From positions 1-59,587 of the forward strand of contig CAIRHQ010000084.1 in NCBI GenBank assembly GCA_903878475.1: 59,587 nucleotides of DNA, given 5' to 3'. This DNA comes from an uncultured Bacteroidota bacterium (lineage in GTDB: Bacteria; Bacteroidota; Bacteroidia; Chitinophagales; Chitinophagaceae). The position numbers and the translations under genes are program-made. Shown here one piece after another: positions 10,179 through 30,679 of this stretch (its first letter is position 1; every line of letters starts with the position of its first letter). Under the pieces are notes generated by a model. It did not search any database. It had not been told where the DNA came from and worked only from the letters and a program-made list of their open reading frames with translations.

Positions 10179-10808
10179 TTACTTAGTTTCTCCCTTAGCG
10201 ATTTTCAAACCAAGAAGTGACGGAGCACCTGCTTGAACACCTTCATGTGCTTTTCCATCATTTAATCCAGCAAGTACTTCTGAAGCTTGTTTCCATGTAA
10301 CTAAAGTATTTGGTCCACGTGTTGGAGGCTTTGGATTGCCAGCGCGCATTGAATCAACTAGATCTTTTGCTGACTGCACAGTCTGGTTGTCATAGAACTC
10401 CCAGTTGGCCATTACAACTGGCGCATAATCACATGCAGCGTTGCACTCAATATGCTCGAGTGAAACCTTTCCATCAGTAGTAACGCCATCGTTTTCAATA
10501 CCAAGGTGATCCTTAAGTGCATCCATGATTGCGTCTCCGCCCATAATGGCGCACAAAGTATTTGTGCAAACTCCTACGTGGTATTCACCTACTGGCGTTG
10601 GCTTGTACTGGGTATAAAAGGTAGATACAGCAGTGACTTCAGCTGCAGCTAAATCAAGTAGCTTTGCAATTACTTCAATGCCCTCGTTAGTTACATAACC
10701 AGCACGTGATTGAACAAAGTGCAGCAAAGGCATGATTGCAGAGCGTGAACGTGGATAACGCTTAATGATCGTTTCCATAATTGCTAGATCTTCGTTTGAG
10801 AATGCCAT
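10179..10808 (-). CDS. nuoE: NADH-quinone oxidoreductase subunit E (2Fe-2S)
   Basis: 209 residues with the thioredoxin-like 2Fe-2S fold. The four cluster ligands are visible as CTNTLC (Cys 81 and 86) and CNAAC (Cys 122 and 126). NuoE forms the NADH-oxidising module with NuoF and NuoG. The roughly 50-residue C-terminal tail is rich in charged and small residues and is not part of the core fold. The ATG overlaps the nuoD stop by one base. Confidence 0.96.
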   Translation of the reverse strand: MAFSNEDLAIMETIIKRYPRSRSAIMPLLHFVQSRAGYVTNEGIEVIAKLLDLAAAEVTAVSTFYTQYKPTPVGEYHVGVCTNTLCAIMGGDAIMDALKDHLGIENDGVTTDGKVSLEHIECNAACDYAPVVMANWEFYDNQTVQSAKDLVDSMRAGNPKPPTRGPNTLVTWKQASEVLAGLNDGKAHEGVQAGAPSLLGLKIAKGETK

Positions 10809-12145
10809 TAGCGGTCAACGCCTCCCATAACTGGATCGATAGAAGCAACTGCACCGATGATGTCAGCGATCATTCCGCCTTCACTCATTGCAGAAGTTGC
10901 TTGCAAGTTATTAAAAGACGGTTCACGGAAATGCATACGATATGGATGCGTTCCGCCGTCAGAGACAATATGCGCTCCGAGTTCACCACGTGGTGATTCA
11001 ATCGCTGCATAAACCTGTCCGGTTGGAACGCGGAAACCTTCAGTTACTAATTTGAAGTGGTGAATCAAAGACTCCATTGATGTTCCCATGATTTCGCGGA
11101 TGTGATCAAGAGAGTTTCCAAGTCCATCGCCACCAAGAGCTAACTGCGCTGGCCATGCAATCTTCTTGTCGGCAACCATTACTGGCGCGCCTTGAAGTTT
11201 TTCTAACTTATCAAGTGCCTGCTCAACAATACGAAGTGATTGTTCAAGTTCATTCATGCGGATTAAGAAGCGACCATAAACATCGCAAGTATCTGCTGTA
11301 ATAACATCAAAGTTATAGTCTTCATATCCACAATAAGGTTGCATCTTGCGAAGATCCCAAGGAAGACCGGTAGAGCGAAGTACAGGCCCTGTGATTCCAA
11401 GAGTTGTGCAACCTGCAAGATCTAAATAGCCAATACCTTGTGTGCGCTTCATCCAAATAGAGTTTCCAACAAGCAGTGTTGTGTTGTCTTTGAAGTTTTT
11501 GCGCATCAACTTAACTGCATCACGAATCTTTGGAATCGCACCTTCAGGAAGATCCTGCTGGACTCCGCCTGGGCGGACATAGGCCATATTCATGCGAAGG
11601 CCTGTAATCATTTCAAAGAGATCTAGAACGATTTCGCGCTCACGGAAAGCAAAGAACATAGGTGAAATTGCACCGAGTTCGAGGGCTCCTGTACCAAGTG
11701 CCACCATGTGTGAAGAAATACGGTTGAGCTCCATCATCATCACGCGGATAACAGTTGCGCGCTCTGGAACATCGTTAGTAATTCCCAAGAGTTTTTCAAC
11801 CGCTAAGCAATAAGCAGTTTCATTAAAGAGTGGCCCTAGGTAATCCATACGTGTGACGAATGTTGTGCCCTGTGTCCAGCTGCGATATTCCATGTTCTTT
11901 TCAATACCTGTGTGAAGGTATCCAATTCCGCAACGTGCTTCGGTAACGGTTTCGCCTTCAAGTTCTAGAACTAAACGAAGCACACCGTGTGTTGATGGGT
12001 GCTGCGGACCCATGTTTACAACAACGCGCTCTTCTTTAGTAGAACCAATTTCTTGAACGAGTGAATCCCAATCGCCACCAGTTACTGAATAGACAGTTCC
12101 TTCAGTGGTATCACGAGATGGTGCATACGGATCAAAAGTTGTCAC
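10808..12145 (-). CDS. nuoD: NADH-quinone oxidoreductase subunit D
   Basis: 445 residues, the 49-kDa-type subunit related to NiFe hydrogenase large subunits, which builds the quinone pocket together with NuoB. Signatures are [20 protein letters not shown] near residues 43-62 (the HPSTHG histidine contacts quinone), [15 protein letters not shown] near 75-89 and the C-terminal ending GGVDR, where the hydrogenase active-site motif has been lost. It overlaps nuoC by four bases (ATGA). Confidence 0.97.
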
Positions 12146-12771
12146 TTGTAACTCCTTCGCTCATTAGGAGGCGGAGTTGTTGCACCTTTGTATTCAACTG
12201 GAATTCCACCAAGTGCATAATCCTTGCGTTGTGGGTGACCTTGCCAATCATCTGGCATCAAGATTCGTGTAAGACCTGGATGACCATCAAAGATAATTCC
12301 AAACATGTCAAAAGTTTCGCGCTCGTGCCAGTTATTACCAGCCCATACTTCAACAACAGATGGAATATGTGCATCTGCATCAGGAACAGAAACTTCTAAA
12401 CGCACACGTCGATTATTAGTAAGTGAAAGTAGAGGATAAACCGCATGTAGTTCGCGGCCTGCATCAGTTGGGTAATGAATGCCAGAAACACCCATGCACA
12501 TTTCAAACTTCAATGTGTCACGAAGAATCATTGATACTTCAACAAGTTTTTCACGCTTTACATGCAGAGTTAATTCACCGCGATCAACAACCACGCGCTC
12601 AATTGCCTCTGAAAATAATGGGTACGCGCGCTCTAAATCATCGGCAACTTCATCAAAATAGCTGCCATAGGGACGCTCAGATGAGCCTGTAGAGGCCGCT
12701 GTGCGAACTAGTCCGCCATAGCCAGATGTGTCTCCGGTGCCACGGGCACCAAACATTCCTTGATCGCTCAT
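12142..12771 (-). CDS. nuoC: NADH-quinone oxidoreductase subunit C
   Basis: 209 residues. The core (about residues 60-195) is the 30-kDa complex I subunit with the signature [20 protein letters not shown] near 149-168 followed by [21 protein letters not shown]. The first 45 residues are glycine and serine rich and probably disordered, as is usual for actinobacterial NuoC. NuoC bridges NuoD and NuoB in the peripheral arm. It abuts nuoB with no gap. Confidence 0.96.
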
Positions 12772-13329
12772 TTATGCCAGCAAGCCCTTCATCTCAATAG
12801 TTGGCTTTGCATTCATTGCAGCAAGCTCAACTTCCTTGATGATTTCTGCGCGATTTGAACCAAGTTTTTCATCATAAATCTTTGAGTGAAGTTTCAAGAT
12901 TGCATCGAGCAACATCTCAGGACGTGGTGGGCAACCTGGCAGATAAATATCTACTGGAACAACGTGGTCCACACCTTGCACGATTGCGTAGTTGTTAAAC
13001 ATTCCACCTGATGATGCGCAGGCACCCATTGCAATAACCCATTTAGGGGCTGCCATTTGATCGTAAATCTGTCGTAGTACTGGCGCCATTTTGTTTGATA
13101 CTCGACCGGCAACGATCATCAAATCTGCCTGTCGTGGAGAGGCGCGGAAAACTTCCATACCAAAACGTGAAATGTCATATTTAGCAGCTGATCCAACAGC
13201 CATCATTTCAATTGCACAACATGCAAGACCAAATGTTGCAGGCCACAAAGAGTTCTTACGCATGTAACCTGCAAGTTTTTCTACCGTTGTTAAAACAAAG
13301 CCGCTTGGGATTTTCTCTTCAAGACCCAT
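12772..13329 (-). CDS. nuoB: NADH-quinone oxidoreductase subunit B (4Fe-4S N2)
   Basis: 185 residues. NuoB holds cluster N2, the last iron-sulfur centre before the quinone. All four cysteine ligands are present: the adjacent pair in LACCAIEMM (Cys 37 and 38), Cys 104 in [10 protein letters not shown] and Cys 133 in PGCPPRPE. The gene follows nuoA after three bases. Confidence 0.97.
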
Positions 13330-13332
13330 CGA

Positions 13333-13704
13333 TTAATCCCATTCCAATCCACCGCGTCGCCACACATATGCATATGCAATAAATACTGTTCCAATAAAAA
13401 TTGCCATCTCAACTAAACCAAAGATGCCTAGGGCATCAAAAGTAACTGCCCATGGATAAAGGAAGACAATTTCAATATCAAAGATGATAAAAAGCATCGC
13501 AGTTAAGAAATACTTAACTGGAAAACGTCCACCTTCTGCAGCTTGCGGTGATGGTTCGATTCCGCACTCATATGCATCGGCTTTAGCGCGGTTGTATCGC
13601 GCAGGACCAGTGAGTGCTCCAGCAACAACTGAGATCATTGCAAAACCAAAACCGATTGCCCCTAGCGCCAAAATCGGCACGTATGGATTTGATGTGGATA
13701 TCAC
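13333..13704 (-). CDS. nuoA: NADH-quinone oxidoreductase subunit A, leaderless GTG start
   Basis: NuoA is a three-helix membrane subunit at the NuoH/NuoJ/NuoK interface. Seen are ECGIEPSPQAAEGGRFPVKY near residues 46-65 and FDIEIVFLYPWAV near 75-87, both diagnostic. The longest open frame begins at 13,782, but its first 26 residues do not resemble NuoA. I therefore choose the GTG at 13,704, giving 123 residues. A -10 box lies exactly seven bases upstream of that GTG, so the mRNA probably begins at the start codon. This is the first gene of the 14-gene operon. Confidence 0.9.
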   Translation of the reverse strand: MISTSNPYVPILALGAIGFGFAMISVVAGALTGPARYNRAKADAYECGIEPSPQAAEGGRFPVKYFLTAMLFIIFDIEIVFLYPWAVTFDALGIFGLVEMAIFIGTVFIAYAYVWRRGGLEWD

Positions 13705-13711
13705 GTGTGAA

Positions 13712-13717
13712 ATCTTA
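13712..13717 (-). promoter_or_regulatory. Probable -10 box of the nuo operon (leaderless)
   Basis: TAAGAT on the minus strand matches the actinobacterial TANNNT -10 consensus. Seven bases separate it from the GTG of nuoA, the spacing expected when transcription starts on the first base of the start codon. No clear -35 match is seen. Confidence 0.55.
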
Positions 13718-13744
13718 GAGTCGCCGGAGGCGTGCCGGTGACCG

Positions 13745-14437
13745 CTACCCCTTAATCCCGCTGTGAACTGCAACAACCCCACCGGTCAGGTTTTTCCAGG
13801 TGATCTGTGACCAGCCCGCCTTTTCCATCGACTTGGCTAAAGCGCCTTGATCAGGCCAGGCACGGATCGATTCGGCGAGATAGATATAGGCATCGGGGTT
13901 GGATGAGCTCTTGCGGGCGATTACCGGCAGCAGCCTCATCAAATACTCGGTATATATGGTGCGAAATAGCGGCCAGGTGGGGTGGCTGAACTCAACTATG
14001 ACCATCCGTCCGCCAGGCTTGGCCACGCGCAGGGCTTCTGCGAGCGCCTTGGGGTAATCAACCGTGTTTCGAAGGCCATAGGAGATGGTCACAACGTCAA
14101 AAGTATTGGCCTCAAAGGGCAGATTGAGCGCATCGGCCTTGGAGAAGTGTAGATAGGGGCGGGTTTTGCGGCCCACAGCCAGCATCCCCTCAGAGAAATC
14201 AGTGGCAAAGACCGTGGCGCCGGCTTTATGCAGGGGCTCTGAGGATGAGCCAGGACCTGCCGCTACATCTAGGATTTTCATCCCTGGGGCTGGGGCGATG
14301 ATCGTGGTCGCCGCTTTTCGCCAGGCTTTGGTGCGGCCCAGGCTCAAAAGATCATTGACCAGGTCATATCGCTTGGCTACACCATCAAACATCGCCGCGA
14401 CTTCATCGGGATCTTTATTCAAATTCGCGCGCGACAT
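13745..14437 (-). CDS. menG: Demethylmenaquinone methyltransferase (MenG/UbiE)
   Basis: Transfers a methyl group from SAM to demethylmenaquinone, the last step of menaquinone synthesis. The protein shows the UbiE signatures YDLVNDLLSLGRTKAWRK near residues 24-41, the SAM-binding ILDVAAGPGSSS near 53-64, FATDFSEGML and ISYGLRNTVDYPKALAEALR near 117-136. I chose the ATG at 14,437, which has an AAGGGAG ribosome site nine bases upstream, over upstream starts at 14,443 and 14,470. The gene is markedly GC rich: two hand-counted 60-base lines give 63 and 68% against 42% in flanking genes, and codons end mainly in G or C. This suggests replacement by foreign DNA. Confidence 0.93.
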   Translation of the reverse strand: MSRANLNKDPDEVAAMFDGVAKRYDLVNDLLSLGRTKAWRKAATTIIAPAPGMKILDVAAGPGSSSEPLHKAGATVFATDFSEGMLAVGRKTRPYLHFSKADALNLPFEANTFDVVTISYGLRNTVDYPKALAEALRVAKPGGRMVIVEFSHPTWPLFRTIYTEYLMRLLPVIARKSSSNPDAYIYLAESIRAWPDQGALAKSMEKAGWSQITWKNLTGGVVAVHSGIKG

Positions 14438-14499
14438 GGCCATATTCTCCCTTGAAGTAGGCTCATCCACAACTTACGGCGCGAGAAAGGTATGTGGCT

Positions 14500-15084
14500 A
14501 TGTCATTTCCAACTACATCACTTCGGGCGCTAGTAATCCCCCGCGCAACTGCGCTGAGTAATGCCGTTGTGATCGTTGGCGGAGTGGTCGTTCTTTCAGC
14601 TTTGGCGCAGATCGCCATTGCAGTACCTGGCTCGCCAGTTCCAGTCACAGGGCAAACTTTGGGTGTGCTTTTAATTGGCACTACATATGGCGCATCACTT
14701 GGTGTGGCAACTTTTGCACTCTACTTATTAGCAGGAGTTGCTGGGGCACCGGTTTTTGCAGGTTCCGGTTTTGGTATCGAAAGAGTTATCGGTGCAACTG
14801 GTGGTTATTTAGTAGGAATGCTTCTCTCAACTTTTGTTTTAGGTTTTTTTGCACAAAAGCGCTTTGATCAAAAATTTACAACTGCGCTTCCTTCAATGCT
14901 TATTGGAACATTAATAACTTTCACCGTTGGTCTTCTCTGGTTACACCAATTCACTGGAAAAAGTTGGAGCTGGACAATCAACGCGGGTTTAACACCATTT
15001 ATTGTTGGTGAGGCGTTAAAGGTTCTTATTGCCGGAACATCACTTCCACTTCTTTGGCGTTTAGTTAATCGAAAGCACGCTTAA
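14500..15084 (+). CDS. bioY: BioY biotin transporter substrate-binding component
   Basis: About 195 residues with six membrane helices. BioY is the S-component that captures biotin for an ECF-type importer. Family hallmarks are PGSPVPVTGQTLGVLLIGT near residues 44-62, GVAGAPVFAGSGFG near 83-96 and GATGGYLVGMLLST. No ATPase or T-component gene is nearby, so it would use shared ECF modules or work alone. The start could be GTG 14,494 or ATG 14,500; the ATG has GAAAGG nine bases upstream. It is divergent from menG and 14 bases before menF. Confidence 0.92.
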   Translation: MSFPTTSLRALVIPRATALSNAVVIVGGVVVLSALAQIAIAVPGSPVPVTGQTLGVLLIGTTYGASLGVATFALYLLAGVAGAPVFAGSGFGIERVIGATGGYLVGMLLSTFVLGFFAQKRFDQKFTTALPSMLIGTLITFTVGLLWLHQFTGKSWSWTINAGLTPFIVGEALKVLIAGTSLPLLWRLVNRKHA

Positions 15085-15098
15085 GAAGCAGATAACTC

Positions 15099-16319
15099 AT
15101 GACTTCCCTTATCCCTGTAACAACTACTCGCCTTGGCGCGCACTTACCTCTACTTGATTTACTCCCTGATTCACAACCCTTTGCATGGGTCCGATCTGGT
15201 GAAGGTTTAGTTGGTTGGGGAGTTCATGCCACAACAACTGTTAGTGGTCCCCATCGTTTTGCAGATGCACGACATTGGTGGCAGAAACAGTTAGAAGGTT
15301 TCGCTGTTACAAATACCGTTCATGGAAATGGAACAGGTCCAGTTCTATTCTCATCTTTTTCTTTCTCACCCGATGATGTGTCGGTACTAGTTATCCCTAA
15401 AGTAATTGTGGGTAAAAAAGGTGATAAGTCATGGATTACATGGATCGGTTCTGAACCACAACCTGTATTGAACTCAGTTGCACCGAATCTTCCTAAAGTT
15501 AGTGTGGTGTGGGAAGTCAATGAAAATAGCGATCAAGCTTGGAAATCTCGCGTACAAACAGCTATCGATCGCATTCAAGGAGATGCTTTAGATAAAGTCG
15601 TATTGGCTAGAGATGCCCTCGGTAGTTCTCCAACTGCAATTGATGCGCGTTCGATTCTTCGAACCTTGGCCGCTGAATATCCTTCAACTTGGAACTTCTC
15701 TGTCTCTGGTTTAGTCGGTGCAACCCCTGAACTTCTTCTTCGATTAACCAAGAGCATGGTCACATCCCGCGTCTTGGCCGGAACTATTAGCAAAACAGGT
15801 GATGACGAACGTGATTTGGCGCTAGCTGCATCCCTTGCACGTTCATCAAAAGATTTAGAAGAGCATGAATACGCAGTGCGCTCTGTTGCAGATGCAATCG
15901 AACCCTACTGCACTTCAATCAACGTTCCTGAATCTCCATTTGTTTTGCACTTAGCAAATGTCATGCATCTTGCAACGGATGTGACCGGTGCACTTGCCGA
16001 AACTTTGGCACACGTTGATGCATTCACAATTCTTGAACAACTCCATCCATCGGCTGCGGTCTGTGGAACGCCTCGACCAAAAGCTGCAGCGCTCATTAGC
16101 GAAATTGAAGCAATGTCTCGTGGCCGATATGCAGGTCCTGTTGGATGGATCGATGCTGCAGGTGATGGTGAGTTAGGAATCGCACTGCGCTGTGGACAGA
16201 TTAAGGGTGATTCGATTCGAATATTTGCTGGTTGCGGAATTGTTGCAGGATCAGATCCTGTAAAAGAGTTAGCTGAAAGTGAAGCTAAGTTTGTTCCAAT
16301 GCGCAGTGCCCTTAAATAA
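15099..16319 (+). CDS. menF: Isochorismate synthase
   Basis: 406 residues, chorismate-binding family. It converts chorismate to isochorismate, the committed step toward menaquinone. Seen are DKVVLARDA near residue 168, LAGTISKTGDDERD near 227-240, PSAAVCGTPRPKA near 316-328, SRGRYAGPVGWIDAAGDGE near 340-358 and FAGCGIVAGSDPVKELAESE near 377-396, the standard catalytic and Mg-binding segments. Its neighbour menD, read toward it, uses the product, which argues for MenF rather than a siderophore EntC. The stop is one base from the menD stop. Confidence 0.92.
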   Translation: MTSLIPVTTTRLGAHLPLLDLLPDSQPFAWVRSGEGLVGWGVHATTTVSGPHRFADARHWWQKQLEGFAVTNTVHGNGTGPVLFSSFSFSPDDVSVLVIPKVIVGKKGDKSWITWIGSEPQPVLNSVAPNLPKVSVVWEVNENSDQAWKSRVQTAIDRIQGDALDKVVLARDALGSSPTAIDARSILRTLAAEYPSTWNFSVSGLVGATPELLLRLTKSMVTSRVLAGTISKTGDDERDLALAASLARSSKDLEEHEYAVRSVADAIEPYCTSINVPESPFVLHLANVMHLATDVTGALAETLAHVDAFTILEQLHPSAAVCGTPRPKAAALISEIEAMSRGRYAGPVGWIDAAGDGELGIALRCGQIKGDSIRIFAGCGIVAGSDPVKELAESEAKFVPMRSALK

Positions 16320-16320
16320 T

Positions 16321-17895
16321 TTAAATCGAGTTCATCGATTCATAAATAGCTTTTAGAGAATCTGCATTTGCTTCTCGTGAAGGCACATTAGCCACAACGA
16401 CGCTTATTCCTTTTACGGGACTGGCTAATACTTTCTTTAACGCATCTAAAGATGTAATAGTTGAAGCGTTGATTCCCATCGCTGTTGCTATCGCTGCTGG
16501 ATCTAGACCGTGAGGTGTTCCAAAGACGGATTCGAAACCTTCAACTCCACGCTGAGGCAAAGTTGAGAATATTCCCCCACCATCGTTATTAATGACTATA
16601 AAGCAGCAGTTAATATCTTCACCTTGAATCAATCCAGTTAAATCATGCAAGAAAGAGAGATCTCCCAGCAGAGCAAATGTCGCTGTGCTTGCAGATGCGA
16701 TTCCAAGTGCCGTAGAGATATTTCCATCGATTCCAGCTAACCCACGGTTTGCATATGTAGTTACACCAGTTCGAGGGGTCGCAAAACCTTCTAAGTCACG
16801 GATAGGTCGTGATGATGAGACAAAGAGCGATGACGCATTAGGGATGGATGCTGCGATTTGCCTTGCAATCGTGGCTTCTGTAAATCCAGTAAGGGCATCG
16901 ATGTTTTTTGCACAGCGCGATGCATATTTTTGCCATAACTCCATCCATTCCTCTGATCCCTTACGGGTATTTAACTGAGGGATTTCTACAAAACGCTTAT
17001 CCGCTTGCCTGTCGCTATCAACAGTTGCAATGCGTGGATCAATAACAATTTGAGTTGGGGCTAGCTTCACAAATGCATTAATTGAACGGGATAAAGTTGT
17101 ACGACCAATAACAATAACTGTTTGTGGAATAAGAGCTGCACGAATCTGAGCAGAAGTTAAAAAGATTGAAGCGTGAGCAACTGCCTGCGGAAATGAAAGT
17201 GGATCTTCAGAAATAACTGGCCAACCCAATTCATTAGCAAAGTTATTAACGGCATCGACAGTTAAACCGCCGCGATCATGTCCAATTACTAAAACACCAC
17301 GTGTTGCATCACTTTTTAGTGTGGTGGCTTTAGTTCTGGATTCAAAAACTTTTGGTGCAACTTTAATCTCATCTAGCCATTGTGTTGAATCATCAGGCAG
17401 CATTGGTTCATCAAATTGAAGATTGAGGTGGACTGGACCGTTGCGCAAACTATCGAAAGGTAGTTCCATAGGAAAAACTGGTCCATCGATATCTGCAAAA
17501 TATCTCACTGCTTTTCCATAAATGCGCGCTTGCTCGGTAGTTTGATTGGCACCTGTTTTTCGCAATATTGCTGGGCGATCTGCAGTTAAAACTAAGAGCG
17601 GAGCATTGGTATGGCTAGCCTCTAATACCGCTGGATGGTAGTTGGCAACAGCGGTTCCGCTCGTGCAGAGGATTGGCACAGGCCGACCCGTTGCTTTAAT
17701 AATTCCTAGCGCAAAAAACGCTGCCGTGCGCTCATCGATTCTCACATGTAGTTTTATTAATCCACGTTTAGATGCTGCGGCAAATGCAAGAGAAAGCGGT
17801 GCGTTGCGAGAGCCTGGTGAAACTACAACATCGCTAATTCCGGCCTCAATAATCTGGCGAACTATTACACGGGCAAGACTGGTTGAGTTATTCAT
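16321..17895 (-). CDS. menD: SEPHCHC synthase (MenD)
   Basis: Thiamine-diphosphate enzyme joining isochorismate and 2-oxoglutarate to form 2-succinyl-5-enolpyruvyl-6-hydroxy-3-cyclohexene-1-carboxylate. From the chosen ATG at 17,895 the protein is 524 residues. It has VSPGSRNAPLSLAF near residues 24-37, the catalytic-glutamate segment RIDERTAAFFALG near 51-63, the ThDP/Mg motif GDLSFLHDL and INNDGGGIFSTLPQ near 420-450. The longer frame to 17,937 adds residues that only read through the end of menC. The ATG overlaps the menC stop (ATGA), so the two genes are translationally coupled. Confidence 0.95.
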   Translation of the reverse strand: MNNSTSLARVIVRQIIEAGISDVVVSPGSRNAPLSLAFAAASKRGLIKLHVRIDERTAAFFALGIIKATGRPVPILCTSGTAVANYHPAVLEASHTNAPLLVLTADRPAILRKTGANQTTEQARIYGKAVRYFADIDGPVFPMELPFDSLRNGPVHLNLQFDEPMLPDDSTQWLDEIKVAPKVFESRTKATTLKSDATRGVLVIGHDRGGLTVDAVNNFANELGWPVISEDPLSFPQAVAHASIFLTSAQIRAALIPQTVIVIGRTTLSRSINAFVKLAPTQIVIDPRIATVDSDRQADKRFVEIPQLNTRKGSEEWMELWQKYASRCAKNIDALTGFTEATIARQIAASIPNASSLFVSSSRPIRDLEGFATPRTGVTTYANRGLAGIDGNISTALGIASASTATFALLGDLSFLHDLTGLIQGEDINCCFIVINNDGGGIFSTLPQRGVEGFESVFGTPHGLDPAAIATAMGINASTITSLDALKKVLASPVKGISVVVANVPSREANADSLKAIYESMNSI

Positions 17896-18818
17896 CCGAG
17901 TAGCTCCGCAGTTCTCATGATTCGATTCTTCCACCATTCATAACGATCTGCAGAGACTTCAAGCCCATTAAACTTTGGAACAATCTCATTAATTGCTATC
18001 GAGCCATCAATAATCGCGAGTTCAGCTAGATTTGCTGACAAAAGCGAGCCTGTTGCTAAACCGCAGGCGTAATCTAAAGTTTGAATCGAAGCAGCTAATT
18101 TGAGGCCGTAATTAATTCCAACCGCGCTTTCCAACGCACTTGAGACAACAACTGGAAGTTTGTGGTGCTGGGCTAATTTATGTGCTCGGACAATTCCCCC
18201 AAGAGGTTGTACTTTTAACATCAAAATATCAACTGCCCCGTTTAGATCTATATCGAATGGATCTTTACTTTTACGCAAAACTTCATCGCCAACTATTTTT
18301 ACATCAACCCGGCTTTTAAGTTCTCTTAACTCCTCAACCGTTGTACATGGTTGTTCGACATATTCAATCTCCCCACAAAGATCTAAGAATTTTGCAGCTT
18401 GATCAACGCTCCACAGACCATTGACATCAATTCGAATCTTTGCCATTGGCGAGAGTTTTCTTACCATAGCAATACGAGCTAAATCCTCATCATGATTTGA
18501 TCCAACTTTTATCTTTACCGCTGTGCAACCAGGAAATGTTGAAAGAATTCGATTAATTTCACTCTCGCCATTAAGTGCCGGCATCGTTGCATTAACTGAA
18601 ATACTGCTTCGAAATAACTCTGGTGGTGGAACAGTCGCTGCTTCAATCGCACACGCTAACCACGGAGCACATTCCTGATCGTCATACTCAAGAAAGGGTG
18701 AAAACTCAGCCCAGCCTTGGGGGCCTTCAAATACTGCTACTTCACGGTAATTGATCCCACGAAAATTACTCTTCGTTGGCAGGCTTACAACTCTTAACGA
18801 GTCAAGAATCAAATACAA
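17892..18818 (-). CDS. menC: o-Succinylbenzoate synthase (MenC), 5' end at the chimera boundary
   Basis: Enolase-superfamily dehydratase that makes o-succinylbenzoate from the MenD/MenH product. The second catalytic lysine region VKIKVGSN lies near residues 99-106 and the metal ligands in RIDVNGLW, EYVEQP and IVGDEVL. The frame begins at a TTG at 18,818 (MYLILDSLRVVSLP); an in-frame stop lies just upstream and no ribosome site is seen. The last few codons may therefore have been lost where the contig changes organism. Length of about 308 residues suits actinobacterial MenC. Confidence 0.88.
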   Translation of the reverse strand: MYLILDSLRVVSLPTKSNFRGINYREVAVFEGPQGWAEFSPFLEYDDQECAPWLACAIEAATVPPPELFRSSISVNATMPALNGESEINRILSTFPGCTAVKIKVGSNHDEDLARIAMVRKLSPMAKIRIDVNGLWSVDQAAKFLDLCGEIEYVEQPCTTVEELRELKSRVDVKIVGDEVLRKSKDPFDIDLNGAVDILMLKVQPLGGIVRAHKLAQHHKLPVVVSSALESAVGINYGLKLAASIQTLDYACGLATGSLLSANLAELAIIDGSIAINEIVPKFNGLEVSADRYEWWKNRIMRTAELLG

Positions 18819-18846
18819 ACTTCATATTCAACATTTAGTGCGCAAT
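18819..18846. other. Actinobacteria-to-Bacteroidota boundary
   Basis: These 28 bases separate the start of an actinobacterial menC from the stop of a Bacteroidota trpA. All genes to the left fit Actinomycetota and all to the right fit Bacteroidota, with different promoter style, ribosome-site use and codon choice. No integrase, tRNA, repeat or mobile element lies here. A misassembly of two genomes is the simplest explanation. Confidence 0.85.
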
Positions 18847-19644
18847 TTAATTGGTTTTTGGCAATTCAGCCTTTTCCCTGATGGTATTTACAAATTCTTT
18901 AGTAATTGTAGAGATATCGCCACCGGATCTTAAGGCGAGGATATAGGCAGAGCCGATGATGGCTCCCTGAACATAACTTGATATCTTACTAAAACCCGCA
19001 TGATCCTTTATTCCAAAGCCCACGAGTATCGGATTTCGCAATTGCAGGGATTTCAGTCTGGCCAGATAGGCTTCCTGCTGCTGCATATCGATCGCTTGTC
19101 CGGTAGTAGCCGAAGAAGATACCGCATAAATAAACCCGCTCCCAAGCGTATCGATCTTTCTGATCCTTGCCTCCGAGGTTTCGGGACTGATCAGAAAAAT
19201 AAAACAAAGCCCATATTGTAAGAACATGTCTTGATATTCATTTTCAAACTCATGCATCGGCAGGTCGGGAATAATAAGTCCGGTTACCCCTGCCGCTGAA
19301 GCTTCCCTGCAAAACTTTTCCATACCAAATTGGAGAATGGGATTCAGGTAACCCATCAGGATCACGGGAATATGCATGGATGGGTTGATCTGCAACAGTT
19401 GTTCCAACAAAACAGCAATGCTCATTCCATTTTGCAAGGCTATTGAATTGCTGAATTGTATCACCGGTCCATCGGCAAGCGGATCGCTGTATGGCATACC
19501 CAGTTCAATGATATCGGCACCATGTGCCTGCAAAGCCTTCATCACCTCTCCTGTGCTATTCAATTCCGGATAGCCTGCTGTACAGTACATATTTAGTATG
19601 GGCCGATGATGCTGTTCAAATAAATGGGTGAGTTTGTTCTGCAT
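18847..19644 (-). CDS. trpA: Tryptophan synthase alpha chain
   Basis: 265 residues, TIM barrel. It cleaves indole-3-glycerol phosphate to indole, which is channelled to TrpB. The catalytic pair is visible as Glu 47 and Asp 58 in ADIIELGMPYSDPLADGP, and the phosphate-binding loop as PILVGFGIKD near residue 207. It is the last gene of the trp operon and lies two bases after a small lipoprotein gene. Anything downstream of it in its own genome is missing because the contig switches organism 28 bases later. Confidence 0.97.
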   Translation of the reverse strand: MQNKLTHLFEQHHRPILNMYCTAGYPELNSTGEVMKALQAHGADIIELGMPYSDPLADGPVIQFSNSIALQNGMSIAVLLEQLLQINPSMHIPVILMGYLNPILQFGMEKFCREASAAGVTGLIIPDLPMHEFENEYQDMFLQYGLCFIFLISPETSEARIRKIDTLGSGFIYAVSSSATTGQAIDMQQQEAYLARLKSLQLRNPILVGFGIKDHAGFSKISSYVQGAIIGSAYILALRSGGDISTITKEFVNTIREKAELPKTN

Positions 19645-19646
19645 AA

Positions 19647-20006
19647 TTATCTGTCGGATGATGTAAGGGTAATATCTTTCCCATCCAGGATGATATGGTG
19701 ATAACGAGGCTTGGCATCAATATCAAGGGTAATGTTGAATAAGGCCTGAGGTTTAGTGCTTGTTTTGGTAAAACTGACTAGGATGCTGTCGCCCGTTCTT
19801 TGAATAGTGTAATCCTTCCCGTTAAAATCTGCATCCAGGCAACTGTGAAATGTAAACCGTTCTCCATTGATATTCGCATCCAATTGAACAGGATCTTCAA
19901 TGCCGGTACAATTCCCCAGTTTTTCATATGTCAGACTATGATTAAGAAATCGATCGCTGCAGGAAAATAGCAACACACTAACGAGTATCAATACACTATA
20001 TTTCAT
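19647..20006 (-). CDS. Small lipoprotein embedded in the trp operon
   Basis: 119 residues. The N-terminus MKYSVLILVSVLLFSCSDRF is a lipoprotein signal with a lipobox ending at Cys 16. The rest is probably beta-rich (for example QLDANINGERFTFHSCLDAD and HHIILDGKDITLTSSDR) with three further cysteines before residue 60. I do not recognise a family. It overlaps trpB by four bases and is two bases before trpA, so it must be co-expressed with tryptophan synthase. Nothing in the sequence ties it to tryptophan chemistry. Confidence 0.8.
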   Translation of the reverse strand: MKYSVLILVSVLLFSCSDRFLNHSLTYEKLGNCTGIEDPVQLDANINGERFTFHSCLDADFNGKDYTIQRTGDSILVSFTKTSTKPQALFNITLDIDAKPRYHHIILDGKDITLTSSDR

Positions 20007-21184
20007 GAGGGTAAATTTTTCATGTACGTATCCAGGTCTTTATCTCCTCTACCACTCAAACATATAACCACCACATCGGATGGCTTCCATTCAAGTTGGG
20101 TTAATGCATGCAGTGCATGAGCAGATTCCAGTGCAGGAATGATGCCGGCAGTTTTGCTCAAGTGCATGGCTGCTGCCATGGCTTCATCATCCGTAGCCCA
20201 AAGAAAACGGGCTCTCCCGCTTTCAAAAAGATGTGCATGCAGGGGCCCGATACCCGGATAATCGAGTCCCGCAGAAATACTGTGCGGCTCGGTTACCTGA
20301 CCATCTGCAGTTTGCATCAATAAACTTTTGCTGCCATGTAATATTCCCATGGTGCCCAATTGTGTTGTAGCGGCAGATTTTCCGCTATCGATGCCACAAC
20401 CGGCTGCTTCAACAGCGATCAGCTGCACTTGGTCGTCATTTAAAAAATGATAAAAAGCTCCGGCTGCATTACTACCACCGCCTACACAGGCGATCACATG
20501 GGTAGGCAATTCGTTTCCTGTTCTTTCAAGCAGTTGTGATTTTATCTCAGCGCTGATCACCGATTGAAAACGCGCTACCATATCCGGATAAGGATGTGGT
20601 CCTACCACACTTCCAATGATATAATGCGTATCGGCGGCATGATTGATCCAATCACGAATGGCTTCATTGGTAGCGTCCTTCAGGGTTTTGCTTCCACTGG
20701 AAACCGGCACCACCGTAGCGCCCAGCATTTTCATCCTGGCCACATTGGAAGCCTGCCTGGCCATATCTTTTTCGCCCATATACACCACACAGGGCAGTCC
20801 CATCAGCGCACACACGGTAGCGGTAGCCACTCCATGCTGGCCGGCACCGGTCTCTGCAATGATGCGTGTTTTTCCCAGCCGTTTGGCAAGTAACACCTGA
20901 CCAATGGTATTGTTGATCTTATGTGCACCGGTATGACAAAGGTCTTCGCGCTTCAGATAAATATTGGTATTCCATTGTTTACTCAAATGCTCTGCGAAAA
21001 ATAAAGGCGTTGGACGCCCAACATAATCTTTCAGCAATTGTTGAAATTCAAGTTGAAAAGCAGGATCCTCCATGATATCGATATAGCTATCCTGCAACTG
21101 CTTCACATTGGGATACAACATTTCGGGGATGAAGGCCCCGCCAAAGTTTCCATAATATCCATATTCATTCACACTGAAATTCAT
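20003..21184 (-). CDS. trpB: Tryptophan synthase beta chain
   Basis: 393 residues; PLP enzyme condensing indole with serine to give tryptophan. The PLP lysine is Lys 89 in HTGAHKINNTIGQ, the phosphate loop is GGGSNAAGAF near 230, and YGNFGGAFIPEML opens the protein as in the TrpB1 type. The paired TrpA gene is separated from it only by the lipoprotein gene. It starts with ATG 24 bases after the trpF stop. Confidence 0.97.
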   Translation of the reverse strand: MNFSVNEYGYYGNFGGAFIPEMLYPNVKQLQDSYIDIMEDPAFQLEFQQLLKDYVGRPTPLFFAEHLSKQWNTNIYLKREDLCHTGAHKINNTIGQVLLAKRLGKTRIIAETGAGQHGVATATVCALMGLPCVVYMGEKDMARQASNVARMKMLGATVVPVSSGSKTLKDATNEAIRDWINHAADTHYIIGSVVGPHPYPDMVARFQSVISAEIKSQLLERTGNELPTHVIACVGGGSNAAGAFYHFLNDDQVQLIAVEAAGCGIDSGKSAATTQLGTMGILHGSKSLLMQTADGQVTEPHSISAGLDYPGIGPLHAHLFESGRARFLWATDDEAMAAAMHLSKTAGIIPALESAHALHALTQLEWKPSDVVVICLSGRGDKDLDTYMKNLPS

Positions 21185-21208
21185 TCCTGGTATTTAACTG
21201 TGTTAATA

Positions 21209-21841
21209 TTATTTTTTTAAGCCCTGCCTGAATTGCAGCAATAATGCCATATCCTTGATGCCGGGTTCTTTTTCAAATTTGCTGTTGAGGTCAACGGCGT
21301 AAAAATCGGGGTGCTTGAATGCTTTCAGTGCAGCCAGATCTTCTAATCCAATGCCGCCACTCAGGAAAAATGGTTTCTCTATTTTAGCCTTGGCCACCCA
21401 CTGCCAATTGAATTTTTCGCCGGTACCTCCTGCTTTTCCATCGGATCCTTTATTATCGAACAAATAATAATCGCATACCGCATCATAATCAGCTACCAGT
21501 TCATCAAGGGAAGCTTGTTGATCTCCTGGGGCAAACACTTTGATCACTTCTACTTCATCAGAAAGGTCTTCGCATAATTCGGGCGATTCATCGCCATGCA
21601 GTTGAACCACATCTAATCCATAGGCTTCTACTATTTCCATGATGGCATCATAATCCATATTGACGAATACCCCTACTTTCTTAAGATCGAAGTCGGAGTT
21701 TTTCAGATCATCACTTTTTAATTTGTCGCCTACATATCGCGGAGAACTGGGGTCGAATATCAATCCTGCAAAATCAATATCCAGACCGTCTAATTGTTGC
21801 AATTGTTTCAATTGGGTAATCCCGCATACTTTAATGTTCAT
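21209..21841 (-). CDS. trpF: Phosphoribosylanthranilate isomerase
   Basis: 210 residues, TIM barrel. It performs the Amadori rearrangement of phosphoribosylanthranilate to CdRP. The general-base cysteine is Cys 6 in MNIKVCGITQL and the acid aspartate is in YAVDLNSKFE near residue 180; PFFLSGGIGLEDL near 152 is the phosphate-binding segment. It sits between trpC and trpB as a separate gene, not fused as in enterobacteria. Confidence 0.96.
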   Translation of the reverse strand: MNIKVCGITQLKQLQQLDGLDIDFAGLIFDPSSPRYVGDKLKSDDLKNSDFDLKKVGVFVNMDYDAIMEIVEAYGLDVVQLHGDESPELCEDLSDEVEVIKVFAPGDQQASLDELVADYDAVCDYYLFDNKGSDGKAGGTGEKFNWQWVAKAKIEKPFFLSGGIGLEDLAALKAFKHPDFYAVDLNSKFEKEPGIKDMALLLQFRQGLKK

Positions 21842-21883
21842 GTTGATCGTTTTGTTCAGGCCTTCGCCTGTATTGATTAAAAA

Positions 21884-22675
21884 TTATTTTTCAGATTCTT
21901 GTAAAGCTTCGGCAAATTGCCTGAAGGCATATCCCGGATCGGTTGTGCTCATAAAATATTCGCCCATCAAAAATCCCTGAAAGCCCCCTTGCTTCAACGC
22001 TTTTAGGGTGGCCAAGGAATGGATACCGCTTTCAGCAATTTTTATTTTGTCGTCGGGGATCTGTTTTACCAATGCCCTGGCATGATCAAGGTCAACTTCA
22101 AAATTTTTCAGGTTCCGGTTATTCACGCCTACCAGCTCTGTCGAATCGCTAATATAGTTCAATTCCTTTTCCTGATGGATCTCCAGCAATACTTCCATAT
22201 TCAATGACCGGGCCAGCCGGGCAAATGATTGCAATTCATCATTGGGTAAGCAGGCCGCGATCAACAAGATCACATCAGCACCCAGGGCCTTTGATTCGAT
22301 CACCTGGTATTCATCAATGATAAATTCTTTACGCAACAAGGGTATTTCATTTTTTCTTGCCGCGATAAGATCTTCCTGCGATCCACCGAAGAAGAACTGA
22401 TCCGTTAATACTGAAATACCACTGGCTCCATGTGCATGATATTGCTGGGTGATCTGATCTACCTGTGCTGTTTCATTGATGATCCCTTTCGACGGTGACC
22501 TTCTTTTAAATTCAGCAATGATGCCGGTCTTGTTTTTATCCAACAATCCTGATCTCAACGAGTAAGTCTCCCGTTCAAAAAAAGGCGAATGCATCAATTG
22601 CGAAACAGGCACTTGCAGTTTTTGCTGAACCAGTGCTGATCGTTTATGTGCTATAATTGTTTCCAGGATATTCAT
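21884..22675 (-). CDS. trpC: Indole-3-glycerol phosphate synthase
   Basis: 263 residues from the ATG at 22,675. It closes the indole ring from CdRP. Seen are the catalytic-lysine segment IAEFKRRSPSKG near residues 52-63, LRKEFIIDEYQ near 115-125, ELVGVNNRNLKNFEVD near 180-195 and IAESGIHS near 216. The open frame reaches 22,705 but the chosen ATG overlaps the trpD stop as ATGA, and MNILETIIAHKR is the usual N-terminus. Confidence 0.96.
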   Translation of the reverse strand: MNILETIIAHKRSALVQQKLQVPVSQLMHSPFFERETYSLRSGLLDKNKTGIIAEFKRRSPSKGIINETAQVDQITQQYHAHGASGISVLTDQFFFGGSQEDLIAARKNEIPLLRKEFIIDEYQVIESKALGADVILLIAACLPNDELQSFARLARSLNMEVLLEIHQEKELNYISDSTELVGVNNRNLKNFEVDLDHARALVKQIPDDKIKIAESGIHSLATLKALKQGGFQGFLMGEYFMSTTDPGYAFRQFAEALQESEK

Positions 22676-23667
22676 GCCTTCATACTCGTTAAGGTTTGCA
22701 AACATGAATACGCTCTTCCGCTTTCTAAACTTTCAATGGCAAGTTGGTAGCAGTCGTCATAATTAGCCGCCGCACCCGCACATTCCAAGGCCATCGCCGC
22801 ATTGGCCAATACTACGGCGTTTTGTGCCCAGCTACCCTTACCCTGCAATATTTGAAGAAATATTTTCGCGGCTTCGGCTATGGAATTACCCCCATAGATA
22901 TCAGCTGGCGTTACGGTACGTTTTCCCAACTCGGCAGCTGAAAAAGTTCTTTCTCCTTTTCGGGTGATCACGCGGGTATCACCTGTTAGTGCGATCTCAT
23001 CGTATCCATCTAGGCCATGAACAATTGAATATTCAGTGCTTCCTGCCTGCAACATATAATTATAGAACCGCGCCATTTCTAAATTGTAAACGCCGATCAT
23101 TTGGTATTGTGGATGAGCCGGATTTACTAACGGACCCAGCATATTAAAAAAACTGCGGAACCCAAGGCTTTTCCTTATATGAGCCACTTGTTTCAGTGCC
23201 GGATGAAATAGTGGAGCGTGCAGAAAGCAAATATTGGCTGCTTCCAGTTCTTGCAACAGATCCTCGCTACGCTTTCTGAATTTGTATCCGAGTTGCTCTA
23301 ACACATTGCTGGAACCGCTGACAGAAGAAGCAGCATAGTTACCGTGTTTGGCAACCTTTACTCCAGCCCCGGCCACTATAAAACAACTCAGTGTGGAAAT
23401 ATTAAAAGTATTCTTCCCGTCGCCACCGGTACCTACCATATCGAGTACAGGCTGTCCTTTCAGATCAACCGGATTCACCTGTTCCATCAACGCATCCCGA
23501 AAACCCTGTAATTCATCAATGGTGATACTGCGCATAAGGTACACCGTTATCAATGCTGCGATCTCCGGATCTGAAAAAGCATTTTCGGCAATTTGCTGCA
23601 TCACCGCATGGGCCTCCTGTCGGGATAGCGGCTCGTGTTCAAATAATTGTTGTAATACTTTTTTCAT
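22672..23667 (-). CDS. trpD: Anthranilate phosphoribosyltransferase
   Basis: 331 residues. It transfers phosphoribose from PRPP to anthranilate. The PRPP-binding GTGGDGKNTFNIST lies at residues 79-92, followed by KHGNYAASSVSGSSNVLEQL near 107-126 and GPLVNPAHP near 169. The start is two bases after the trpG stop; the stop overlaps trpC. It is separate from trpG, unlike the enterobacterial TrpGD fusion. Confidence 0.96.
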   Translation of the reverse strand: MKKVLQQLFEHEPLSRQEAHAVMQQIAENAFSDPEIAALITVYLMRSITIDELQGFRDALMEQVNPVDLKGQPVLDMVGTGGDGKNTFNISTLSCFIVAGAGVKVAKHGNYAASSVSGSSNVLEQLGYKFRKRSEDLLQELEAANICFLHAPLFHPALKQVAHIRKSLGFRSFFNMLGPLVNPAHPQYQMIGVYNLEMARFYNYMLQAGSTEYSIVHGLDGYDEIALTGDTRVITRKGERTFSAAELGKRTVTPADIYGGNSIAEAAKIFLQILQGKGSWAQNAVVLANAAMALECAGAAANYDDCYQLAIESLESGRAYSCLQTLTSMKA

Positions 23668-23669
23668 GG

Positions 23670-24278
23670 TTATGAATTCAAGCTTGTCTTGTTAAAATCA
23701 ATACTCAGCCAATTGCGCATGATCTTTTCCCCGGCGGGGGTTAGCACACTTTCGGGGTGAAACTGTACACCCTGAAGATCATATGACTTATGCTGAAGGC
23801 CCATGATATACCCATGTTCATCCCTTGCCGTTATTTCCAACTCATCCGGAAATCCTTCTTCACTTACGATCCAGCTATGATAGCGACCGGTTTCTATGGT
23901 GTTAGACAATCCTGTAAATAGCGGACTAATGGGTTTATCATTTTGCCACACCGACTGAACCGGTGTGGCTATCCCATGGAATACTTTGCTCAGGTTAACC
24001 AATGTACCGCCAAATGCTTCTGCAATGGCCTGATGCCCCAAACATACACCCAGTATCGATTTGCTGGATGCGTAAGCCTTGATCAACGGGAGTAACAATC
24101 CGGCTTCCGAGGGAATGCCCGGGCCGGGCGATAAGATGATCTTGTCGTAACCCGCCACCTCATCCAAACTGATGGCATCATTCCTGCGCACGGTAATCTT
24201 TTCACCGGTGATATGTTCTACCATATGCACCAGGTTGTACGTAAAAGAATCATAATTATCGAATACCAGTATTTTCAT
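23670..24278 (-). CDS. trpG: Anthranilate synthase glutamine amidotransferase
   Basis: 202 residues, class I glutamine amidotransferase. The triad is Cys 79 (GVCLGHQAI), His 174 and Glu 176 (VQFHPESVLTP); DNYDSFTYNLVH begins the protein. It feeds ammonia to TrpE. It could in principle also serve aminodeoxychorismate synthase, but its place between trpE and trpD supports anthranilate synthesis as the main role. Confidence 0.96.
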   Translation of the reverse strand: MKILVFDNYDSFTYNLVHMVEHITGEKITVRRNDAISLDEVAGYDKIILSPGPGIPSEAGLLLPLIKAYASSKSILGVCLGHQAIAEAFGGTLVNLSKVFHGIATPVQSVWQNDKPISPLFTGLSNTIETGRYHSWIVSEEGFPDELEITARDEHGYIMGLQHKSYDLQGVQFHPESVLTPAGEKIMRNWLSIDFNKTSLNS

Positions 24279-24305
24279 TCTGCGTTTATTGGTTATTGTT
24301 ATATT

Positions 24306-25736
24306 TTATTTGGCCGGAGCTACAAATGCATTTTTCAGTGCCTCCAGTTTATTGTTCACTTCCTGTAATTCACTGGCCGGATCACTGGCCGCAGTGATCC
24401 CTGCCCCTGCCTGATAGATCAGTGTATTGTTCCTGCTGAGCAGGCTGCGGATCATGATGGCATGATTAAGGGTTCCGTTGAAACCCACCATACCGATAGC
24501 GCCTCCATAAAAACCCCGGGCCGTAGGTTCATACCCATCGATCAATTGCATGGCCTTGAATTTTGGTGCGCCGCTTAAGGTTCCCGCCGGAAAGCTTGCA
24601 GCCAGGATCTGAAAGGGGTTTGTTCCCTCAGGCAGTTGACCGGTTACTTCACTGACCAAGTGGATGACATGACTATAATATTTTATGGTTTTAAAAATAT
24701 TGACTTTTACTCCGCTACTGATCTTGCTCAGGTCATTTCGCGCCAGGTCGACCAGCATCACATGTTCCGCATTTTCTTTTACATCCTTTTGCAGTTTTAT
24801 GGCGCTCGCTTGATCTGCTTCGTCATTCCCGGTTCTTTTAAATGTGCCTGCAATGGGATGTACAATGGCAGTTCCTTGTTCATCCACGATCAACTGGCTT
24901 TCGGGCGATGAACCCATCAGTTTGTAATCGCCATAATCAAAATAGAACAGATAAGGCGATGGGTTGATGCTCCGCAGCGCACGGTACACATTGAATTCAT
25001 CACCGGAAAAACGTTGTTCAAATCTTCTGCTCAACACGATCTGAAAAACATCTCCGCGCAAACAACTCGCCATCCCTTTTTTCACAATTTCCAAATAAGC
25101 GGCATCATCCATATTGCTGGTTTCCGCTCCGTTTACCGCGAAAGGAAATACCGGAATATCCTTGCTTCGGATCAGGGTTTTCAGGAGATGGATCTCTGAC
25201 TCAACACCATCAACAATATTTTCACAAATAAACAATTCATCTTTGAAATGGTCAAACACAATTACATATTGATACAACCGGTATCGCATCAATGGAATGG
25301 CAGAGGTTTCATCAGCCTGTAAAATATTTTTTGATGCATTTAAATGTATTGATTCAAAGCATTGAATGGCATCATAGCTGCAATAACCAAAAAGGTTTTG
25401 TGCAAACCGAACAATTTTTGTGTCCTGCGGCTGGATCTTGAACCGGTTCATAAAATCCCAGCAAAGTTTGGGCACAACAGCAGGATCAGCAATAGCCATT
25501 GTTTCTGGATCGCTTCCTGGATATTTAGTTTCTATTGATCCCGTAGTAGAAACTTCAAACCCTGCGATGGCATTTACGCCAATGATGGAATAACTGTTTT
25601 CGCCGGCATGAAAATCAGTGCTCTCGAGCAAGATGGTATCCCGAAACCGGTCGCGCAGCCGAAGGTAGATGCCCACCGGAGTATACACATCGGCCAATTG
25701 TTTAGTAAATACAGTATTCAGTTGAATCGGTTTCAT
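24306..25736 (-). CDS. trpE: Anthranilate synthase component I
   Basis: 476 residues. It makes anthranilate from chorismate with ammonia from TrpG. The N-terminal tryptophan feedback site contains LLESTDFHAGENSYSIIG near residues 36-53. The catalytic domain has FQIVLSRRFEQ near 232, IVHPIAGTFKRTGNDEADQ near 290-308, FPAGTLSGAPKFKAMQLID near 381-399 and YQAGAGITAASDPASELQE near 437-455. It is the first structural gene of the operon and lies 12 bases after the attenuator terminator, so its expression depends on readthrough. Confidence 0.97.
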   Translation of the reverse strand: MKPIQLNTVFTKQLADVYTPVGIYLRLRDRFRDTILLESTDFHAGENSYSIIGVNAIAGFEVSTTGSIETKYPGSDPETMAIADPAVVPKLCWDFMNRFKIQPQDTKIVRFAQNLFGYCSYDAIQCFESIHLNASKNILQADETSAIPLMRYRLYQYVIVFDHFKDELFICENIVDGVESEIHLLKTLIRSKDIPVFPFAVNGAETSNMDDAAYLEIVKKGMASCLRGDVFQIVLSRRFEQRFSGDEFNVYRALRSINPSPYLFYFDYGDYKLMGSSPESQLIVDEQGTAIVHPIAGTFKRTGNDEADQASAIKLQKDVKENAEHVMLVDLARNDLSKISSGVKVNIFKTIKYYSHVIHLVSEVTGQLPEGTNPFQILAASFPAGTLSGAPKFKAMQLIDGYEPTARGFYGGAIGMVGFNGTLNHAIMIRSLLSRNNTLIYQAGAGITAASDPASELQEVNNKLEALKNAFVAPAK

Positions 25737-25747
25737 CGTATTTCATT

Positions 25748-25772
25748 AAAAAACCCGGCAACTTGTGCCGGG
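25748..25772 (-). terminator. trp attenuator terminator
   Basis: On the minus strand a perfect 7-bp stem CCCGGCA/TGCCGGG (25,766-25,772 with 25,754-25,760) and 5-base loop is followed by six T (25,748-25,753). It lies between the leader peptide and trpE, so it is an intrinsic terminator ahead of the first structural gene. Confidence 0.9.
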
Positions 25773-25826
25773 CTAAACTATTTATATCATTATCAATAGC
25801 AAAAAGGCACAATCATTTGATCATGC
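25763..25826 (-). promoter_or_regulatory. trp attenuator: alternative hairpins 1:2 and 2:3
   Basis: Segment 1 (25,819-25,826, GCATGATC) pairs with segment 2 (25,807-25,814, GATTGTGC) across a 4-base loop. Segment 2, read as TTGTGCC (25,806-25,812), also pairs perfectly with GGCACAA (25,763-25,769), which is the 5' arm of the terminator. A ribosome stalled at the Trp codons would cover segment 1, allow 2:3 to form and prevent termination. A ribosome reaching the stop codon would cover segment 2 and allow termination. Confidence 0.85.
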
Positions 25827-25863
25827 ACCACCAGCTATTATTATTGTTATTCAATTTCATCAT
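25813..25863 (-). CDS. trpL: trp operon leader peptide
   Basis: A 17-codon frame on the minus strand reads MMKLNNNNNSWWCMIK and ends in TGA at 25,813-25,815. Two adjacent Trp codons occupy 25,828-25,833. Too short to be called by ordinary gene finders. Its stop codon lies at the start of segment 2 of the attenuator and its Trp codons lie just before segment 1, the geometry of ribosome-mediated tryptophan attenuation. Either of the two starting ATGs could be used. The promoter -7 box ends only about six bases upstream, so the message may be almost leaderless. Confidence 0.85.
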   Translation of the reverse strand: MMKLNNNNNSWWCMIK

Positions 25864-25869
25864 TGGATA

Positions 25870-25900
25870 CAAATATGCGCCATAAAATTAACTTGCACAA
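25870..25900 (-). promoter_or_regulatory. Probable Bacteroidota promoter of the trp operon
   Basis: On the minus strand a TTG (25,898-25,900) is followed after 20 bases by CATATTTG (25,870-25,877), one mismatch from the Bacteroidota -7 element TAnnTTTG with correct -33/-7 spacing. The start site would fall at about 25,863-25,866, right before trpL. Confidence 0.6.
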
Positions 25901-25938
25901 ATTTTTCTGATGAACTACCTTCAAATAAATTTTTCAAC

Positions 25939-26568
25939 ATGAAGCTTATTGTTTTTGGCGCCACCGGCATGGTAGGTAAACAACTGGTACAACAGGCCCT
26001 GTTCAAAGGTCATGAAGTACGGGCATTTGGCAGAAATGTGTACACCACTGATTTTCCGGATGATGACAAGCTGGAAAAAATTCAGGGGGCATTGTTTGAT
26101 GAGAAAGAAGTGTTTCAGGCGATCGCCGGTTGCGATGCGGTATTGAGCGCATTGGGAGGAGGCTTCGATGGAAATGATAAAACCCGTACGCTGGGTATTA
26201 AAAATATCATTGCACAAATGAAGAAATCCGGGGTAAACAGGATCGTGGGTATTGGCGGACTGGGTGTTTTAAATGCAGATGAGCATACCCTTTTACTCGA
26301 TACGGATACTTACCCTCCCGAATACCTGCCGGTAGGAAAAGAGCACCAGCAAGCTTATACGTATTTGAATGAGAGCGGACTTAACTGGACATTTGTTTGT
26401 CCGCCCAATATCATGAACGAAGGCCCAACGGGTGAATTTATCACGGCCGCGAATTACCCTCCCGTGCCCAACAAATACCAGATCAATGCCGGCGATCTGG
26501 CATTATTTATGTTGAATGAGATTGTAAAAGGAGAATACGTGAAACAACGGGTAGGCATCAGCAATTGA
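25939..26568 (+). CDS. NAD(P)-binding oxidoreductase-like protein (NmrA/biliverdin reductase B type)
   Basis: 209 residues with a Rossmann fold. The dinucleotide-binding motif is VFGATGMVGKQLVQQAL near residues 4-20, followed by VRAFGRN and DAVLSALGGG near 65-74. The catalytic Tyr-Lys pair of classical SDRs is not evident, which fits the atypical NAD(P)H-binding group. The substrate cannot be inferred. It is read divergently from the trp operon and shares its upstream region of about 75 bases with the trp promoter. Confidence 0.85.
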   Translation: MKLIVFGATGMVGKQLVQQALFKGHEVRAFGRNVYTTDFPDDDKLEKIQGALFDEKEVFQAIAGCDAVLSALGGGFDGNDKTRTLGIKNIIAQMKKSGVNRIVGIGGLGVLNADEHTLLLDTDTYPPEYLPVGKEHQQAYTYLNESGLNWTFVCPPNIMNEGPTGEFITAANYPPVPNKYQINAGDLALFMLNEIVKGEYVKQRVGISN

Positions 26569-26588
26569 ATACATGAATCATCAATACA

Positions 26589-27011
26589 TTGAATATTTCA
26601 ACCTGCTATAAAAGATTATTCCTGTTCCTCCTGAGTTTGATGGCTACAGGCTTGCTAAGGGCACAGAAGATAGAGGGCATTTATGTAGACCTGTATACCG
26701 ACAGCCTGAAAAAAGGCACTTACAACTATATCAATATTGACGGATTGTTGAGTAATGGCAAATACACGCCGCTCGACAGCAGTCATTTAATTTTAAAAGC
26801 CTCTGCAGGAAAATTCAGCGGAAATAATTTATGGATCGACCCAGATTTTTCGCAGGAAAAAATAACCATACGGGCTACCCTGAAAAAAGACCCTACCATG
26901 TTCAAGGAATTTGATGTTTATATCAAAAAATTACCTGACCCACCATTAAAAAAGGTTGAGGAGATCATGAGACCACCGGTAAAGCGGAAATCAAAAAAGG
27001 GAGATCAATAA
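26589..27011 (+). CDS. Small secreted protein, unknown function
   Basis: 140 residues. It has a signal peptide (RLFLFLLSLMATGLLRAQ, cleavage after about residue 25) and a beta-rich body, ending in a lysine-rich tail (PPVKRKSKKGDQ). The frame opens with TTG at 26,589; an in-frame stop lies just upstream and no ATG precedes the signal. I recognise no family. It follows the NAD(P)-binding gene by 20 bases, and its stop abuts the stop of the convergent transaldolase gene with no gap. Confidence 0.75.
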   Translation: MNISTCYKRLFLFLLSLMATGLLRAQKIEGIYVDLYTDSLKKGTYNYINIDGLLSNGKYTPLDSSHLILKASAGKFSGNNLWIDPDFSQEKITIRATLKKDPTMFKEFDVYIKKLPDPPLKKVEEIMRPPVKRKSKKGDQ

Positions 27012-27905: not shown

Positions 27906-27909
27906 GGCG

Positions 27910-30677: not shown

Positions 30678-30679
30678 AA

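Follow-up and report, generated by a model that had tools for sequence, protein, structure and literature searches.

A Bacteroidota-type contig carrying 18.8 kb of actinobacterial chromosome, most probably the product of a false assembly or library join

The stretch of DNA analysed here, referred to as the window, is a contig of 59,587 nucleotides (contig C84) from an uncultured Bacteroidota genome (G000, the host genome). This genome comprises 2.85 Mb in 245 contigs, scores 100% for completeness and 1.08% for contamination, and is the only genome of its species in the set compared. The window consists of two blocks of different origin, separated by a single sharp lineage switch that is visible both in matches to a second metagenomic genome (MAG) and in k-mer composition. 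At the switch, a group of NADH dehydrogenase (nuo) and menaquinone genes ending in menC abuts a trp operon whose last gene is trpA (Table 1); trpG was named by its position and from relatives, outside the family scans. The sole tRNA found in the window lies at 55,497-55,570, and the genes named beside the join include no integrase or repeat.

Table 1. Blocks and genes on either side of the join (window positions; TlpA-like start graded probable)
Feature	Positions	Strand	Basis
Foreign block: actinobacterial chromosome	1..18814	.	DNA identity to Ja_bin-4290, k-mers
Left-block genes: nuo genes, demethylmenaquinone methyltransferase, isochorismate synthase, menD, menC	1..18814		
menC, 5' end cut by the join	17892..18818	-	family scan, native-contig comparison
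Join, almost certainly false	18814..18815	.	native-contig divergence at 18815, k-mer change point
Host block (Bacteroidota-type genome of the bin)	18815..59587	.	k-mers, T9SS plug, TamL, ProRS
Probable first codons of a TlpA-like thioredoxin-fold gene, cut by the join	18815..18834	-	ATG at 18834 or in-frame 18825
trpA, last trp-operon gene	18847..19644	-	TIGR00262
Small lipoprotein-like ORF, trpB, trpF, trpC, trpD, trpG, trpE	19647..25736	-	scans, relatives' order

Most of the left block was recovered in a separate MAG of 1.3 Mb, presumably from a freshwater organism and titled 'uncultured actinobacterium Ja_bin-4290' (G030): 16,399 of the 18,814 left-side bases are matched there at 99.78% DNA identity. 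The alignment extends over 16,540 bases with 37 mismatches and no gaps, 141 bases being counted twice, and involves three contigs of the MAG that span window positions 1-4598, 7014-17301 and 17161-18814; a fourth match is weak (69% over 137 bases). Contigs C124 and C84 of this MAG share 141 identical overlapping bases, as neighbours in a contig graph do. Positions 4599-7013 have no match in Ja_bin-4290; they are actinobacterial by k-mers and fall inside the left block's run of nuo genes. The 3.8 kb by which the MAG extends beyond window position 1 on the left match nothing in the host genome except the window's own first 64 bases. We take Ja_bin-4290 to be a member of the data set of PMC8121793.

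Composition was analysed with an order-4 Markov k-mer model trained on 15 Ja_bin-4290 contigs against 54 other host contigs, leaving out short contigs reading N (7 of 61 host contigs: C10, C15, C30, C49, C56, C59 and C60; 2 of 17 contigs of the MAG: C1 and C12). Held-out errors amounted to one in 633 host kb bins and none in 133 MAG kb bins. Within the window, each of the 19 kb bins up to 19,000 scores positive (actinobacterial), and each of the 40 full bins that begin at 19,001 or later scores negative (host-type). The best change point falls at 18,854, with 18,797-19,101 lying within 10 log units; an earlier run on a smaller set of contigs had placed it at 18,863. By mean score, every one of the 54 other host contigs examined (of 245; 13 over their first 20 kb only) is of the right-hand type. 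GC content was rejected as a separator of the halves, as it stays at 41-49% in 2-kb bins throughout.

The original prediction had placed a change from actinobacterial to Bacteroidota-type genes near 18,820-18,846. This switch is real: the match to the MAG stops at 18,814, close to the k-mer change point, and the k-mer comparison that had been suggested as a check separates the two halves cleanly near the join. The actinobacterial assignment of the left side is borne out by the scanned NADH dehydrogenase and menaquinone genes as well as by the MAG match, and that of the right side to Bacteroidota by a T9SS plug (NF052315) and a family-I ('archaeal-type') ProRS (TIGR00408). TamL was also identified on the right by family scan; T9SS plug and TamL mark Bacteroidota. 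This check of gene type covers the scanned families; leaderless GTG starts, the AAAGGAGG site, TAnnTTTG boxes and the MoxR cluster stay putative signs named by the original prediction.

On the left of the break, menC had been described as lacking a normal start, and the comparison with native DNA agrees: the window's ORF opens at a TTG (18816-18818) created by the join, whereas the native gene in Ja_bin-4290 begins ATG CTT GAT TTG ATT. In Ja_bin-4290, MenC residues 3-308 are 100% identical (rounded), one residue near the C-terminus being different. After 17905, the first mismatch with the native actinobacterial contig is at 18815; past 18,814 this contig continues through the true menC start into menB (enoyl-CoA hydratase family). 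Bases 18,815-18,846 are absent from it, and its 5-kb menB flank has no match in the host genome except for 32 bases up to the join. A MenC scan of genome contigs yielded 45 loci, in 37 of which menB directly precedes menC on the same strand at a distance of 7-33 bases; menB is inverted relative to menC in seven, and in one the contig ends at menC. No trpA occurs in any of the 45 actinobacterial stretches examined.

Some MAG titles sit uneasily with their menC loci. A MAG titled 'uncultured proteobacterium KT_bin-2439' (L031) carries an actinobacterial-type menB-menC pair (61% MenC identity); this may be a further case of mis-binning or of a chimeric contig, or the label may be wrong. Two MAGs titled 'Bifidobacterium breve' (L033 and L034; 59-60% MenC identity) have menB-menC pairs resembling those found in the uncultured actinobacteria studied here, so the species label in their titles looks doubtful.

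On the right of the break, trpA finds matches at 53-63% identity in 10 of 18 same-genus relatives and none in the other eight, and the order of the trp genes is the same in these relatives as far as their contigs extend. The trp operon is that of the host genome's own genus. Between trpB and trpA, a small lipoprotein-like ORF of unknown function (19647-20009, minus strand) has relatives in the same position in L110, L112, L113, L116 and L117, at 36-61% identity. The same-genus relatives L109, L110, L114 and L116 each have two adjacent trpF-like genes; compared with the only trpF of the window, these are about 40-43% and 67-71% identical.

In all ten same-genus relatives with a trpA match, the gene next to trpA encodes a TlpA-like thioredoxin, a protein combining a thioredoxin fold with a DUF4369 domain (as scanned in one relative and in a copy on host contig C73). 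In the window, the bases that follow trpA read ATG TTG AAT ATG AAG TTT GT and then give way to actinobacterial DNA; the resulting ORF, MLNMKFV..., reaches after 10 codons a stop brought by the actinobacterial DNA. Starts could be placed in nine relatives: the protein begins with MK- in six, has MK- at residue 7 in one and differs in two. The tenth, L118, was excluded from this comparison because its ORF, of 241 aa and located 192 bases after trpA, is shortened and its start is not placeable. As the N-termini of the relatives agree only in part, the reading of 18815-18834 as the start of the TlpA-like gene is probable rather than proven. The 28-base gap of the original prediction is indeed located between menC and trpA, but it is not a neutral spacer and apparently holds the first codons of the next gene.

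The remainder of this gene was located elsewhere in the host genome, where the best TlpA-like match lies at G000:C73:2-1012, starting from residue 34 of a relative's protein at 61% identity; weaker homologues occur on other host contigs. C73 opens in host-type coding DNA and stays collinear over about 9 kb with L112 (G014), one of the relatives. Because the TlpA-like remainder begins at base 2 of C73, and because of this collinearity, C73 can be identified from gene order as the true neighbour of trpA. Roughly 20-90 bases would be missing between the join and C73, a range that reflects the varying N-terminal lengths among relatives. Host bases linking the join to C73 were not found, and the join region (18,791-18,830) shares no words of 8-12 bases with the first 200 bases of C73.

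The left block carries genes whose counterparts were surveyed in the host and its relatives. The host has two NuoF over the curated cut-off, one of them native, on C19; eleven of twelve same-genus relatives have one each and the twelfth has none. Two further NuoF-like matches below the cut-off (G000:C139:22199-23200 and G000:C240:12507-12989) may be portions of a different, NuoF-type flavoprotein. The host's only menD over the cut-off sits on the foreign block; none of the 18 same-genus relatives has a MenD over the cut-off, as against 4 of 11 more distant relatives. The genus also yields MenD-like matches below the cut-off (E about 1e-15 to 1e-19), which are presumably other thiamine-diphosphate enzymes. 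MqnC, of the futalosine route, exceeds the cut-off in the host; among 12 same-genus relatives, 10 are above it and an eleventh is just below. The notion that the left block fills a missing menaquinone pathway was given up, since MqnC is present in the host.

Taken together, the evidence leaves us almost certain that the window contig is an assembly (or library) chimera of actinobacterial and Bacteroidota-type DNA, its foreign part being the left 18.8 kb and its host part the right 40.8 kb. A chimera predicts that the left side continues only outside the host genome and the right side inside it, and both continuations were found where expected. The original prediction, which favoured a chimera, is thereby strengthened, a native neighbour having been located for each side of the break; its alternative of a 40 kb transfer across phyla, however, had the direction wrong, as what is out of place in the host bin is the left-hand 18.8 kb. 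Some observations count against a chimera: the contamination value of the genome raises no flag for the contig; the host bases expected between the join and C73 were not found, nor any 8-12 base word common to the two; a single genome represents the host species; and the only menD is actinobacterial, as a useful acquisition would also look, but the host has MqnC of the futalosine route.

The main competing account is a very recent, real transfer: in this strain, the TlpA-like gene behind trpA would have taken in 18.8 kb or more from an actinobacterial chromosome, a few tens of bases disappearing in the process. The two halves of this gene would then also end up on two contigs, and the lack of any other menD in the host genome fits as well. 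However, the piece keeps the native chromosomal order, matches a separate MAG at 99.8% identity and is interrupted by no host gene; no second junction is seen, since the contig ends at window position 1; C73 begins in host-type coding DNA; and no further part of that chromosome, from either side, was found in the host bin. With two first-look candidates scored per genome, in a set drawn from a larger group and containing no second genome of the host species, the query 18,000-19,644 was matched in 118 of 194 other family genomes; among the matches listed, none lies left of the join, the lowest position being 18,930. A very young island need not be common to relatives. We consider such a transfer very improbable, and equally improbable its corollary that a Bacteroidota strain newly took up at least 18.8 kb with complex I and classical menaquinone genes beside its futalosine route. 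Even further from credible is the opposite event, a 40-kb Bacteroidota block inside an actinobacterial genome: it amounts to the same join read the other way and has nothing specific in its favour, whereas the uniformly right-hand type of the other host contigs examined and the occurrence of the trp operon across same-genus genomes both speak against it.

On the preferred reading, a false join, some 18.8 kb of ordinary actinobacterial chromosome was fused at 18,814/18,815 to 40.8 kb of host DNA, and the product was then binned with the host. The host-side break was probably a place where the assembly ended anyway, since the start of C73 is only some 20-90 bases away; at that end, a poorly supported link, or one provided by a chimeric fragment, may have been accepted. 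De Bruijn assemblers can create joins at shared words, and two overlapping pairs were observed among 97 contig ends, of 141 bases (C37/C48) and 119 bases (C12/C33), values that we take to be in the default k list of MEGAHIT. Yet the native actinobacterial sequence diverges from the window at 18,815, and a correct reading of the TlpA-like start would limit what the two genomes have in common at the join to about 12 bases at most, because a longer shared stretch would place an in-frame TGA in the TlpA-like gene. This limit makes it unlikely that the join formed at a shared word of assembler length (21 or more bases); it more likely arose from a chimeric read or fragment, or from a local extension error where coverage was weak.

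The contig is thus almost certainly an artefact; it brings no new biology and is useful only as a warning. It falsely credits the host species with actinobacterial complex I genes, isochorismate synthase, menD and menC, and automatic annotation or gene-transfer surveys run the risk of reporting a false cross-phylum transfer. It is also a matter of data hygiene, as the foreign genes sit in a genome with the completeness and contamination scores given above.

Among known actinobacterial men/nuo regions, that of Ja_bin-4290 is the same region as the left 18.8 kb, as its near-identity indicates, and those of LanE43 (OX376642.1) and IMCC26103 (CP015604.1) show about 67-73% DNA identity over the compared parts; the window differs from all of these in breaking off inside menC, where native DNA reaches menB. 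The GUNC paper (PMC8201837) describes such errors and expects misassembly to occur less often than mis-binning. The chimeric contigs described there likewise combine two lineages in one contig with low marker-based contamination (here 1.08%); the present case differs from them in that the native continuation has been located on both sides of the break.
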